Shown in pieces: positions 5,302-52,423 of a DNA stretch of 64,000 nt. Each line of letters opens with the position of its first letter. Position 1 is the stretch's first letter. Under the pieces are notes generated by a model. It was not told the origin of the DNA and made no database searches. It saw nothing but the letters and a program-made list of their open reading frames with translations. The DNA is from Saprospiraceae bacterium (GTDB taxonomy: Bacteria; Bacteroidota; Bacteroidia; Chitinophagales; Saprospiraceae): NCBI GenBank assembly GCA_027080725.1, contig JALWRC010000086.1, positions 1 through 64,000 on the forward strand, given 5' to 3'. Made by a program: the position numbers and the translations under genes.

Positions 5302-6960
5302 TTACCTGTTGGACACCATATAGCCGGCAATTTCATCTCCAAAATAGGTGAGGATATTTTTTAATGGCAATGGCACCCCACCTCCGAGTCCACAGAGTGA
5401 GCCCAATTCTAATGTTTCGATGAGGTCATCGAGCAATTCCCGGTCTATCTTATAACCGGGTTCATCTATCGCTTTCAGAAGCAGCTCTGCTCCTCTTTGT
5501 GCCCCAATTCTACAGGGAAAGCATTTTCCACAGCTCTCGTGAGCGGTAAATGCAAATAGATGCTGCATGAAAGATATCATTGGGTAATCCCCGGGAATAC
5601 ACATGACTCCGGCATGTCCGAGGAGAAATCCATTTTCTTTGAAAGATTCGAAATCCACGGTTAAATCTTTGATTTTGTGCTCGGGGATAATCCCGCACAA
5701 TGGGCCACCTACTTGCACTGCTTTGACATGGGTACGAAAACCGCCCGCCATTTCATACACCAGCTCACCGAAGGAGAAGCCCATAGGTACCTCATACAAG
5801 CCCGGTGCGTTGAAAAAACCGTCCAGTGAGACCAACTTGGTCCCCTTTGACTTGTCCGTTCCTATTGATGCAAATCGGTCTCCTCCTTCGCGTATGATGT
5901 AAGGCACGCAAGCCAGGGTCTCGACATTATTAACGATGGTCGGTTGTCCAAACAACCCGGAAACTGTCGGAAACGGAGGACGGGTGCGTACTTCCGGGCG
6001 CTGTCCTTCGATCGAATTGAGCAAGGCTGTTTCCTCTCCGCAGATGTATGCACCCTGAGCCGGGACGAGATAGAGCCGGTATGAAAAGGCTTCGCCAACA
6101 GCTGTTGGAATGGACGGAAGATTATTAAAAGCCTCAATGGCGGCACCTATCACACGAAGCGCATGTGGATACTCTGCCCGGACATATACTGCGCCCTCTT
6201 TCGCTCCCGTAATATAACCGGTGATGGCCATCCCCAATAGAACGGAATAGGGTTGTTTTTCGAGAAGATAGCGGTCGGAGAATGCGCCCGGGTCCCCTTC
6301 ATCGGCATTGCAAACGATATACTTCTCAGAAGCATCTATGTCCTTGACGGATTGGAGTTTGATATGCATGGGGAATCCAGCTCCGCCCCGACCCCGGACA
6401 TTGGAGCGGGTGAGCTCTTCCAAAAGCGCTTCAGGAGTGTGTTGCAACGCCTCCTTGAGTTCTTTATAACAAGTGTCAATATCCAATGGAACATCGGTGA
6501 GCACCTTGGGGCCTTCAGAATATACGGGGTAATCGTCATTGCGCTCAGAATATGAGCCGTTGAGAATATCCGCCAAATGCTCTATATCAGCTCCGGAATA
6601 ATTATGTCCATTGAAATGAAAAGCCCGGTTTTCGTGACAGCGCCCCAAACACACCATATCCCCTATAGGCCCGCCCAACGATTTTGCCAGTTGTGCTTTG
6701 ACACCGGGTTGTGTCCCGGCGGTCAAACAGGCCGATCCGGTACAGACGTAAGCAGCAGGGGTCTCCTCCTCCGGCCGGAGGAAGTCGTAGGCTGCCGCCG
6801 TGCCAAAAACGGTAGCAGTACCCACGAGAAATTCATCCGCCAACTTCCGGATGTCAGACGGACTTATGCCTCCTTTCGTTTTTTTGATTTCACCGAGCCT
6901 TTTGAAGAGCAGGTGATTTAATCCGTGTCTTCGAGCGAGTTTGGATAGATTTGTTGACAT
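5302..6960 (-). CDS. NuoE-NuoF fusion: NADH-oxidising flavoprotein subunit (FdsB/HoxF-like)
   Basis: 552 residues. The N-terminal 130 residues resemble the thioredoxin-like NuoE fold, with a [2Fe-2S] cysteine set (CTGSAC and later CLGRC). The rest is NuoF: GRGGAGFP and ADEGDPGAFSDR (FMN/NADH site), YICGEETALLNSIEGQRP, and the C-terminal [4Fe-4S] motif ESCGKCFPCRIG with a distant CGLGGG. This fused layout is known from NAD-dependent formate dehydrogenase beta subunits and HoxF of bidirectional hydrogenases, rather than from complex I, where NuoE and NuoF are separate. No NuoG, formate dehydrogenase alpha or hydrogenase subunit is adjacent, so the partner is unknown; the role as an NAD(H) diaphorase module is inferred from the family. 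Confidence 0.85.
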   Translation of the reverse strand: MSTNLSKLARRHGLNHLLFKRLGEIKKTKGGISPSDIRKLADEFLVGTATVFGTAAAYDFLRPEEETPAAYVCTGSACLTAGTQPGVKAQLAKSLGGPIGDMVCLGRCHENRAFHFNGHNYSGADIEHLADILNGSYSERNDDYPVYSEGPKVLTDVPLDIDTCYKELKEALQHTPEALLEELTRSNVRGRGGAGFPMHIKLQSVKDIDASEKYIVCNADEGDPGAFSDRYLLEKQPYSVLLGMAITGYITGAKEGAVYVRAEYPHALRVIGAAIEAFNNLPSIPTAVGEAFSYRLYLVPAQGAYICGEETALLNSIEGQRPEVRTRPPFPTVSGLFGQPTIVNNVETLACVPYIIREGGDRFASIGTDKSKGTKLVSLDGFFNAPGLYEVPMGFSFGELVYEMAGGFRTHVKAVQVGGPLCGIIPEHKIKDLTVDFESFKENGFLLGHAGVMCIPGDYPMISFMQHLFAFTAHESCGKCFPCRIGAQRGAELLLKAIDEPGYKIDRELLDDLIETLELGSLCGLGGGVPLPLKNILTYFGDEIAGYMVSNR

Positions 6961-7031
6961 AGTATCTGATGCTTTTAGGGCAATAAAGATAGGGCGAATT
7001 TTGATAACAGACGGGAAGGTGATACCCGCGT

Positions 7032-7401
7032 GTGTATTACAAACTGCACTTTTTTACAACCTCACCCCCATCCCCCTCTCCTTCATATTCAATCTGTACA
7101 TCATATAAATATTTATGATGAAGGAGAGGGGGGCTTATGTTCCTCTAACGGTAGGGAATTTCATTAGGGTAATACTCAGCTAGATATAGAGTGTATTCCC
7201 CTTCTCCTTTGGCTATGTATTTACTATATTACTTGATATATTTCAAAGGAGAAGGGGTTAGGGGATGAGGTTGTTTAGACGGGATTCGGGATTAAGAGGG
7301 TGTACACTCTCTTCCTGTACCGCTATGGCGGTACAGGCTATACTACTTAAAACCTGTGGCACCAAGACGTACAAGGCGTGATAGTGCATTTTGTAATACA
7401 C
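7032..7401. repeat. 370-base non-coding element with terminal inverted repeats and nested hairpins (MITE-like)
   Basis: The ends are 18-base inverted repeats matching at 17 of 18 positions: GTGTATTACAAACTGCAC at 7032-7049 and GTGCATTTTGTAATACAC at 7384-7401. Inside, ACAACCTCA (7056) pairs with TGAGGTTGT (7266), enclosing two perfect hairpins: a 15-bp stem 7072-7086/7118-7132 and a 13-bp stem 7198-7210/7245-7257, both C-rich on the left arm. A separate 9-bp hairpin CTGTACCGC/GCGGTACAG lies at 7315-7336. ATACCCG occurs just outside each end and may be a target duplication. No coding potential was seen. It fits a miniature transposable or REP-like element; no transposase is present here. Confidence 0.6.
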
Positions 7402-7482
7402 CCATACCCGTCGGGGTCTAATCATTTGCTCCCCGGTTCTTGGAAATTATCGCTACTTTTACCGCACAATAATGTAAAATCA

Positions 7483-8202
7483 GTGGAAAGCAACAAAATA
7501 GCATTGGTGACGGGAGCTGCGGTACGGATTGGGCGTGCGATTTCGCGCTCCCTTGCAGAGGCGGGATATGACCTTCTATTGCACTACCATAGCTCTGCTT
7601 CCGCTGTAGAAACCCTGGCGGAGGAACTTAATTCTCACGGATCCCATGTTAAAACCATCCGGGCAGACTTTAGTCGCCCCGGTCAAATCCGGGAGATGTG
7701 GCAAAGGCTTCCGGAAGAATGGACTCCGCAAGTTTTAGTCAACAACGCTTCCGTATTTTATGATTCCGGGTTGGAGGATTCCGGCATGCAGGATTTGGAG
7801 CTCAATATGCAGGTCAACTTCAGAAGTGCCTATCTCCTCACTAAACTCTTTGCGGAACAGGCCGCCGATGATAGCAATATCATTAATATTCTTGATACCC
7901 GGATCAACCGGTACGATACTCAATTTATAGATTATGCTCTTTCGAAGAAGCTATTGACGGAGTTTACACGGGTCTCCGCCCGGATTTTGGGTCCGAAGAT
8001 CAGAGTCAACGGCATCGCTCCCGGATTAATATTGCCACCACCGGGGCATACCATTTCATACCTGCAACAGAAAGCACAAAAAATACCCTTACAAAGAGCA
8101 GGGGATGTACAAAACATCACGAAAACACTGTTGTTTCTCCTGGAGAATAACTTTATAACCGGTCAAATTATTTTTGTAGATGGAGGAGAACACCTCCTAT
8201 AG
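7483..8202 (+). CDS. Short-chain dehydrogenase, FolM/pteridine reductase-like
   Basis: NAD(P)-dependent reductase of about 239 residues. The cofactor motif TGAAVRIG has the Arg typical of pteridine reductase/FolM-type SDRs, followed by NNAS (residue about 90 of the SDR fold), a Tyr-Lys catalytic pair in YALSKK and a C-terminal FVDGG. The likely substrate is a dihydropterin or dihydrofolate, inferred from the motif and from the FolB-FolK fusion 25 bases downstream. The start chosen is GTG at 7483, giving a short tail before IALVTGA; a longer reading from GTG 7378 would begin inside the repeat element and is unlikely. Alternative: a generic SDR of unknown substrate. Confidence 0.75.
   Translation: MESNKIALVTGAAVRIGRAISRSLAEAGYDLLLHYHSSASAVETLAEELNSHGSHVKTIRADFSRPGQIREMWQRLPEEWTPQVLVNNASVFYDSGLEDSGMQDLELNMQVNFRSAYLLTKLFAEQAADDSNIINILDTRINRYDTQFIDYALSKKLLTEFTRVSARILGPKIRVNGIAPGLILPPPGHTISYLQQKAQKIPLQRAGDVQNITKTLLFLLENNFITGQIIFVDGGEHLL
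8050..8062 (-). repeat. Dispersed 13-mer GGTATGAAATGGT
   Basis: Exact copy on the minus strand, inside the FolM-like gene (reads HTISYL there). One of nine exact GGTATGAAATKGT sites in the window. Confidence 0.6.
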
Positions 8203-36100: not shown

Positions 36101-36779
36101 GCAGTACCTGCAGTTTCATCTGCCTGCTTGTTATTGTCTTTTAAAGGTCAGATGGAACCTTTGATGAATAAAACAATCATTTTTTTGTGTGTTTAATAAT
36201 TGTTTTAATCACTTCGGTTTCATACCAAAGACTATCCGGAGGCTGCATTACAAAATGCACATTTTAGAGTATACTCAAAATCCAATCACAGTAAGAGAAA
36301 AGAATCAAGTCTAGCACTTTATGTGTCTAAAGCCGATTTTTCTCCTTGTGCTCCTCGTAAGAAATAAATACCCTAGCAACAGAAGCTATTTAGTGCTGAA
36401 TCGAGGCGCTCGAATAGGAGTTATGCCGTAGCATAATGACTGTTTGAGCAACGAAAAGTCAGGAGAAAAGAGCAAGGTTATATGTGTAGTTATTCTGTTC
36501 TACTAGCACTAGACATAGAGTTTGATGAAGATAGTTCAGGAAAAGGCCAATGCAGCTCAAAATATTCCACACCATTAAATATTCCGATAAACATTCTAAA
36601 AAACAGGGGATCAAAGTCAAAAGACTTAGGGTGGCAAGGGAGAACGAATAATTAATAAAGGTCCACATACAAAATAAAATATGAATTTTCCTTGATTATT
36701 ATCTGGATTATAGGAGCAGTAAATTAGATTTAATTATCTTTATGAATCTAATCAGACAAGATATCAAAACAATCGAATT
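36101..36779. other. Gene-free stretch at the left edge of the accessory block
   Basis: 679 bases. AT-richer than the genes to its left. Contains GCATTACAAAATGCAC (36245-36260) and GTTTCATACC (36217-36226), a 10-base remnant of the dispersed 13-mer. Only short open frames, none with family resemblance. A weak TATCTTTA box lies about 40 bases before the next ATG. Confidence 0.5.
36245..36260 (+). repeat. Copy of the GTGTATTACAAARTGCAC motif
   Basis: GCATTACAAAATGCAC matches the ends of the 7032-7401 element and, with the T before it, forms a TGCATT/AATGCA hairpin around four bases. It marks the start of the AT-rich block. Confidence 0.5.
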
Positions 36780-41439: not shown

Positions 41440-42126
41440 TGGGCAGTTTGGGGATATAAACTGGTGGATTTTCGGGTGGTGACAAGGCTAAACCTCGAGT
41501 GAGTTCATATTTCCTACATGATAACCACCCCGGCATTAACCTCTTCAGTTATCAAAATAACGACTTTTCTGGCTGGCACTAAATAAGGTGTCATTTCATT
41601 AGGTTGCTTTTCATCGTGTTTTGTGGACAGAAGGAGCCTTTATAGATTAATACTAGCAATACCCCACAATATTGAGAAAAGCTTTGTATGTTGTGTGTAT
41701 TACAAAGTGTAGGTTTATTGAATCTCTGTGATGTTCACTACGTAACAAATCCTTCGTTGAATTTGCATTCCACGATCTTCCTGGGTCAACTCATGGATTG
41801 GAGAGCTGACTACGCAGATCTCACACCTTTGGTGCTGCAATCCGGGATGTATCGTTTTCTTAGCCATTGAGACTATGCTAATCATTAACGCACCTTTGGT
41901 TCTAATAAGAAAAGTACCAAAGGTGCACCATCAATTATCTTTGGCAAAAGGCCAAAGGTACCGAGGAGTCAACCCAAAATAGCATTAAATGCGAAATCTA
42001 TTGGTTGTTGTATAGGTCTTATTACGGTATTCGAAAAGATGCTATCTCCCAAAAAGAGTAGCTTTCATCTATTTTATGCCTTAGAATGGCTTTATTCGGT
42101 GAACTTATACACACCCCATAAGCTCC
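41440..42126. other. Gene-free stretch at the right edge of the accessory block
   Basis: 687 bases. Contains GTGTATTACAAAGTGT (41695-41710), an 11-bp perfect hairpin GCACCTTTGGT/ACCAAAGGTGC (41890-41926) and a second one CTTTGGC/GCCAAAG (41939-41957). Neither has a T run. No convincing gene; a 60-codon frame at 41688 has no family resemblance. Confidence 0.5.
41695..41710 (+). repeat. Copy of the GTGTATTACAAARTGCAC motif
   Basis: GTGTATTACAAAGTGT, same orientation as the copy at 36245; together they flank the AT-rich block as direct repeats. Confidence 0.5.
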
Positions 42127-52375: not shown

Positions 52376-52394
52376 GTGCGTATTACAAAGTGCA
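52376..52394 (+). repeat. Copy of the GTGTATTACAAARTGCAC motif
   Basis: GTGCGTATTACAAAGTGCAC lies in the 267-base gene-free gap beside the toxin-antitoxin pair. The gap otherwise shows nothing clear. Confidence 0.5.
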
Positions 52395-52423
52395 CAAAAA
52401 TGAACGAATGCATTGTTTTGTTA

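Follow-up and report, generated by a model that had tools for sequence, protein, structure and literature searches.

A multi-copy foldback MITE of a Saprospiraceae genome and its candidate ISKra4-like helper transposase

Among the described systems that stand closest to the locus considered here, MITECca01 of Cardinium is, in the passages of PMC9769881 that treat it, an IS-derived MITE whose presumed parental IS belongs to the IS982 family. On the side of the enzyme, the p-MULT 4 ISMich2 group is characterised, in those sections of Guerillot et al. 2014 (PMC3942029) that bear on it, by a -1 frameshift, by inverted repeats (IRs) of 18-39 bp with a terminal C and by direct repeats (DRs) of 8 or 9 bp, and the same sections give circular intermediates of p-MULT in which the ends lie 6-10 bp apart. 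A literature search on MITEs and ISKra4 returned, judged by titles, no paper on a link between the two; ISKra4 goes unmentioned in a review of prokaryotic MITEs (PMC10969869), and nothing on the family of the element described below stood in the literature listings for shared duplications or for MITEs of Saprospira.

The window analysed here is a stretch of 64,000 nucleotides from a Saprospiraceae bacterium, and the sequence at 7030-7403 within it is very probably a non-autonomous MITE copy that was mobilised in trans, the enzyme being a Mutator-like DDE transposase from the ISKra4 family (p-MULT 4, ISMich2-like). Such a transposase would recognise a terminal inverted repeat (TIR) of about 21 bp, and insertion would create a duplication of 8-10 bp, mostly between genes; we infer that an ISKra4-class enzyme would be the mover, and a circle-type mechanism is suggested by the published behaviour of p-MULT. 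The first-pass annotation, made from the sequence alone, had already read the locus as MITE-like, and that reading is borne out by multiple copies, by target duplications, by the non-coding interior and by an IS of this genome that shares its type of TIR. Set beside what those passages tell of MITECca01, the family is likewise non-coding, bounded by inverted repeats, high in copy number and placed for the most part between genes, and its genome likewise holds a presumed parental IS; it differs in that a single TIR type encloses several unrelated interiors and in that elements often abut. The MITE family itself is new, and the kind of parasitic DNA to which it belongs is well known. What is gained is a helper that can be put to the test for this large family of foldbacks, and a link between MITEs and ISKra4/p-MULT 4 transposases, while the end-to-end packing of the elements is the aspect that could interest more widely.

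Boundaries, copies and surroundings of the element

Table 1. Coordinates of the element, its parts and its neighbours in the window
Feature	Position	Strand	Basis or remark
NuoF-like protein (Complex1_51K domain), left neighbour	5302-6960	-	transcribed away from element
Target-site duplication, left copy ATACCCGC	7022-7029	.	7/8 identical to right copy
MITE, 374 bp	7030-7403	+ (TTTTTACAACCTC end first)	repeat geometry, copies, family end comparison, alignment
Left terminal inverted repeat GTGTGTATTACAAACTGCACT	7030-7050	+	repeat search, TIR count, family end comparison
Outer internal stem, 5' arm	7056-7077	.	partner 7253-7274; conserved in 13-copy alignment
Internal hairpin 1	7072-7132	.	perfect 15-bp stem 7072-7086 / 7118-7132
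Internal hairpin 2	7198-7257	.	perfect 14-bp stem 7198-7211 / 7244-7257
Outer internal stem, 3' arm	7253-7274	.	partner 7056-7077
Internal hairpin 3, CCTGTACCGC-TATG-GCGGTACAGG	7314-7337	.	palindromic unit TACCGCnnnnGCGGYACAGG, recurring in family members
Right terminal inverted repeat, minus-strand GGGTGTATTACAAAATGCACT	7383-7403	-	repeat search, TIR count, family end comparison
Target-site duplication, right copy ATACCCGT	7404-7411	.	7/8 identical to left copy
Short-chain dehydrogenase, right neighbour	7483-8202	+	transcribed away; start 7483 inferred, mechanical ORF from 7378

The outline of the element survives from the first-pass annotation with several figures amended. Its terminal repeats had been said to match at 17 of 18 bases; the repeat is there, and 7032-7050 and 7383-7401 pair at 18 of 19. 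All three of the internal hairpins it named are present, and of the two inner stems that it called perfect over 15 and 13 bp the longer was recovered as claimed and the shorter measured 14 bp; a further, outer stem, 82% paired, is nested around the others. The heptamer ATACCCG does flank the element, at 7022-7028 and 7404-7410, and the true ends lie two bases outward of where they had been drawn: among the ends of the family G stands at position 1 in 78 of 86 and T at position 2 in 68 of 86, and this comparison adds two outer bases, so that the element runs from 7030 to 7403 and the duplication reads ATACCCG[C/T] (7/8). As had been reported, no coding frame fits, in that no ORF of at least 80 aa lies wholly within these limits, the mechanical ORF of the right neighbour overlapping the last bases. 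Within the window the TIR pattern (at most 3 mismatches) has 6 matches against 0.11 expected and a maximum of 2 in 100 shuffles. Three more TIR-like ends, all on the plus strand, were seen at 36243-36261, 41695-41713 and 52378-52396 (2, 3 and 1 mismatches), with no partner ends recognised; they may be relics, or members of sister families that have diverged.

The genome as a whole (3.80 Mb, 110 contigs) contains at least 60 matches to window positions 7025-7410, a number of which are only bare ends or arms of the foldback, and at least 16 places (L001-L016, the window's copy included) align over at least 267 bases, the other copies being 80-95% identical; given that 40 of 187 first-look candidates were scored, the count of long matches is a lower bound. 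A single copy, with no empty site in relatives, had been named at the outset as the finding that would speak against a mobile element, and the long matches contradict the first of these two points. TIR ends with at most 2 mismatches number 292 in this genome against 1 for a reversed-pattern control, which would amount to about 146 elements in 3.8 Mb if all were paired, and they enclose several unrelated interiors. From the own-genome loci L001-L082 and L105 and from the window (of the 292 TIR places, 30 had become separate loci), 44 TIR-bounded elements were cut out mechanically, one of them a transposase-bearing IS and 43 without a transposase. The commonest TIR of the latter, tabulated from their 86 ends, is GTGTGTATTACAAAnTGCAC[T/A], of about 21 bp. 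Interiors with the same kind of TIR include types of about 230 bp (AAAATGAGCC... / TTTCTGATTT...), of 141-559 bp (AACCTAAGACAAACGG... / GTTTCCAAGTTTGC...) and of about 513 bp (AATGAGCTTTCATT... / TTTTTTGAAGAATT...). Direct repeats of 7-10 bp (score at least 5) adjoin 21 of the 43 elements, and a clear duplication is absent at 22; among 500 shuffles of left and right flank pairs the mean was 0.29 elements with a duplication and the maximum 3, the scoring leaving the boundary free to shift by one base in each direction for real and shuffled pairs alike.

Among the 60 genomes searched (its own included) the interior of the window element is, as judged by sequence matching, private to its own genome, save for one marginal match of 32 bases (E 3e-4) in G011. 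The TIR pattern (at most 1 mismatch) occurs in 5 of the 60, namely its own, G002, G004, G014 and G027, and no match was found in G001, the sole congener among them. G004 has 20 such matches and at least one short TIR-bounded element (for example L097:1501-1698); its TIR elements, standing without a homologous transposase, are possibly orphan MITEs. IMG/VR yielded two exact TIR matches, each one end alone, and plasmid records gave no DNA match.

The window element sits between the starts of the NuoF-like and the short-chain dehydrogenase genes. Context was studied for the thirty-four elements (33 of MITE type and the IS) that had 800 or more flanking bases to left and right, and by a crude test, which looked for same-strand ORFs touching both ends, none of the 34 splits a gene, mechanical ORFs reaching one end of several. 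Their neighbours are co-directional in 25 cases, divergent in 8 (the IS included) and convergent in 1, and the 8:1 skew of divergent over convergent pairs (one-sided binomial 0.02) is a hint, no more, of insertion near gene starts. An orthologous empty site was not found in G001, the flanking genes of which lie on different contigs with other neighbours, so that none was demonstrable there. A stretch of contig C3, about 389 bp in length, is duplicated (L062:222-609 and 2487-2874) at 96% identity, one copy ending exactly at the left boundary of a member of the window family and the other having no element, which is a half-empty site only.

ISKra4-like insertion sequences as candidate helpers

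A transposase gene bounded by the same terminal repeats had been proposed as a check on the first reading, and the genome does hold an IS whose TIRs belong to this type, their letters slightly off the commonest MITE TIR. This resident IS, on contig C100 (G000:C100), is 1280 bp long (L105:1476-2755), has the ends GGGTGTATGACAAATTGCAGA and GGGTGTATGACAAAATGCAGA and is flanked by the perfect 8-bp duplication CATTTCAA. A six-frame search of six genomes with the G014 protein found one place in the own genome, a 336-codon stop-free frame at C100:27260-28168, one place each in G002 and G014, and none in G001, G004 or G027. In G002 and G014 the TIRs bound an element of 1.3-1.5 kb with a transposase gene, and the TIR GTGTGTATAACAAATTGCAC bounds IS relatives in G002, G014 and Phaeodactylibacter xiamenensis, whose transposases are respectively 55%, 57% and 52% identical to the resident one; their target duplications are a perfect 9 bp in G002 and P. 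xiamenensis, with none seen in G014. A scan of an 84,980-species collection with the resident protein, sensitive to close relatives only, gave three loci, two in P. xiamenensis and one in a Bacteroidota MAG; such relatives of its IS would place the genome itself, probably, in Bacteroidota. The whole IS of P. xiamenensis has the TIR GTGTGTATAACAAATTGCACA and the 9-bp duplication GCGTTGGAT, and no recognisable TIRs were found at the MAG transposase locus. G002 could be a near relative of P. xiamenensis, so that the four ISs are perhaps not fully independent.

The NCBIfam ISKra4 model gives the transposases strong matches that stay under its curated cut-off: the resident protein has E 3e-53 over residues 8-307 of 318 and scores 181 bits, the cut-off being 205. 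Pfam gave no match to the resident transposase and UPF0236 for that of G002. In all four ISs (L105, L104, L103, L125) a short upstream ORF overlaps the main ORF at a run of A8-9, the offset being -1 in three of the four, with +1 or -2 needed in the G002 copy; going by the reading frames, this overlap is a probable programmed frameshift. The inverted repeats of the ISs, of about 21 bp, begin with G and end with C. The candidate helpers thus resemble the ISKra4/p-MULT 4 ISMich2 group, so far as the sections of PMC3942029 drawn on above describe it, in an ISKra4-like protein, in IRs within the 18-39 bp range that end in C, in DRs of 8-9 bp (3 of 4 ISs) and in two ORFs overlapping at A8-9; the window element differs from that group in carrying no gene and in an interior unrelated to the compared ISs. 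Plasmid records include 45 with a distant match to the transposase, at about 29% identity in the 12 matches listed, mostly from cyanobacteria and several annotated as ISKra4 family. A model of the transposase predicted with three sequences as input was of too low confidence for use (mean pLDDT 38.9).

Other transposases of the same genome were considered as helpers and set aside. The intact one of two DDE_Tnp_1 (PF01609) matches is flanked by a different inverted repeat, CAGGGCAAACTCATACTTTT, and the second is a 106-codon open stretch with no TIRs of the window type nearby. No IS1595 (PF12762) was found in the own genome, and no transposase was recognised in the ORF lists of three TIR-bounded or TIR-adjacent stretches.

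Alternative readings of the helper, the palindromes and the fold

The transposase class proposed for the MITEs is well supported, and the resident IS is a possible individual helper. Whether the helper was instead a lost or unassembled IS, with the IS on C100 a related bystander, is a sub-question that does not exclude the main reading, and for this we would allow somewhat less than an even chance. Compared with the resident IS, the commonest MITE TIR has other letters at positions 2, 9 and 20, where the resident letter occurs in 12 (G at position 2), 5 and 1 of 86 MITE ends, respectively; from the ISs of P. xiamenensis, G002 and G014 it differs chiefly at positions 9 and 15, where their letters occur in 3 (A) and 4 (T) of 86. 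It is accordingly closer to these three than to the resident, and a lost relative with a slightly different TIR suits the commonest MITE letters somewhat better. The resident IS is moreover single-copy, and the 80-95% identity of the other copies to the window's copy, which implies that the MITE burst is not fresh, would also suit a helper since lost. Against a mere bystander stand the resident-type ends of some members: one end of L023, a 126-bp member of the window element's family, agrees with a resident IS end in all of its 21 bases, blastn linking L023 to both IS ends (23 and 19 bases), and the resident GACAAA form of the end occurs in L030, L044, L060 and L077. The right end of the window element has the resident G at position 2. 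Comparison of three ISs with the 43 MITEs by blastn (E at most 1) gave 82 matches, of which 80 touch the terminal 40 bases of an IS and the remaining 2 are interior and weak (E 0.043 and 0.15), neither in the window copy; on these alignments the MITEs and the three ISs appear to have nothing convincing in common beyond their ends. This counts against the main reading, as do the failure to find an orthologous empty site, the letters in which the commonest MITE TIR departs from the resident IS, the ISKra4 score under the cut-off, the G004 TIRs with no homologous transposase found and the 22 of 43 elements that lack a clear duplication.

Two further readings concern the palindromes and the fold. 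REP sequences, the partners of RAYT enzymes, are by definition solitary dispersed palindromes without TIRs or target duplications, and neither of these two features is expected of HUH elements. That the palindromes of this locus are REP- or BIME-like and owe their spread to an HUH (Y1) transposase of RAYT type that works on hairpins, a reading close to the alternative first-pass label "REP-like", draws on their nesting, on the presence of one Y1_Tnp gene in the genome and on the recurrence of a unit of about 20 nt, TACCGCnnnnGCGGYACAGG, which is matched 55 times in the genome when 1 mismatch is allowed (in some cases one palindrome is counted on both its strands) and which resembles REP/BIME units in its size and in its occurrence, in part, as inverted pairs. 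The element differs from such systems, however, in being bounded by TIRs and in having target duplications, and 51 of the 55 matches lie in, or within 120 bp of, matches of the window element's family, which argues that the unit hardly spreads by itself; the sole Y1_Tnp gene, an open frame of 134 aa, lies where a contig ends and would fit an ordinary gene of the IS200 type. The label is accordingly not supported, and the REP reading is highly improbable. Equally hard to credit is a structured RNA, or an attenuator- or terminator-like regulatory element, retained for its fold. The fold is indeed very stable on both strands (z-scores -9.0 and -10.0, with 0 of 100 dinucleotide shuffles equally stable), and the element lies between two divergently transcribed genes; but equal stability on both strands is expected of any foldback, no terminator-like site was found, the four Rfam matches at E up to 1 are all far under the gathering score, and copies stand at other loci with target duplications. 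The stems are kept in an alignment of 13 window-type copies (of the 15 near-full copies, L008 and L014 were excluded for their long extra tails), yet among 107 pairs there are 3 with double changes, and covariation, with a term of +1.85, is unfavourable, so that there is no sign of compensatory change maintaining the fold.

Under the preferred MITE reading the palindromic unit is a component of the family that comes and goes. In 15 near-full copies of the window interior (L001-L010, L012-L016) a 22-nt form, TACCGCC-nnn-GGCGGCACAGGCT, is independently present or absent at several fixed sites; in hairpin 2 it occupies both arms in 3 copies, the 5' arm only in 4, the 3' arm only in 2 and neither in 6, and a paired gain in both arms was not seen among the 15. 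The window copy is unit-poor, its sole unit being that of hairpin 3, and this state may be the reason its other stems look perfect. Gain and loss of the unit at fixed sites (7314-7337, L001-L016) is accompanied by small changes in nearby C-runs.

End-to-end arrays

A gapped pattern of one end, 2-26 bases and the next start gave 9 forward matches against 0 for the control, and 13 junctions were counted after the addition of L004 (two), L025 and L003. The gap is 10-14 bases in 10 of the 13, which corresponds to 6-10 bp plus four outer TIR bases; the P of 1.6e-5 against a uniform expectation should be taken as no more than indicative, since both list and band were chosen after the junctions had been inspected. 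These junctions raise the speculative idea, on balance unlikely, that the MITEs favour the ends of sister elements as insertion sites, or move together with those ends, and are strung about one target duplication apart. Arrays might then form via circle-type junctions of the p-MULT kind, in which the two ends lie 6-10 bp apart. If true, this would be a growing cassette array in which different interiors become adjacent and movable or recombinable as larger units, and the end-to-end junctions could be natural evidence on target choice by Mutator-like bacterial transposases.

Spacers were compared by eye in several arrays. There was no sharing in L118 or L119; in L121 it appears only if a frayed end is shifted, and duplication scoring gave L121 none. 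In L116 and L122 the spacer is common to one neighbour. The fullest case is L004:1489-2172, on contig C86 outside the window, where a member of the window family is followed by a 231-bp element and this by a left end standing alone, the spacers being two identical 10-bp direct repeats, GGTATTGGGG, with a 9/10 copy, GGTATTTGGG, at the far left.
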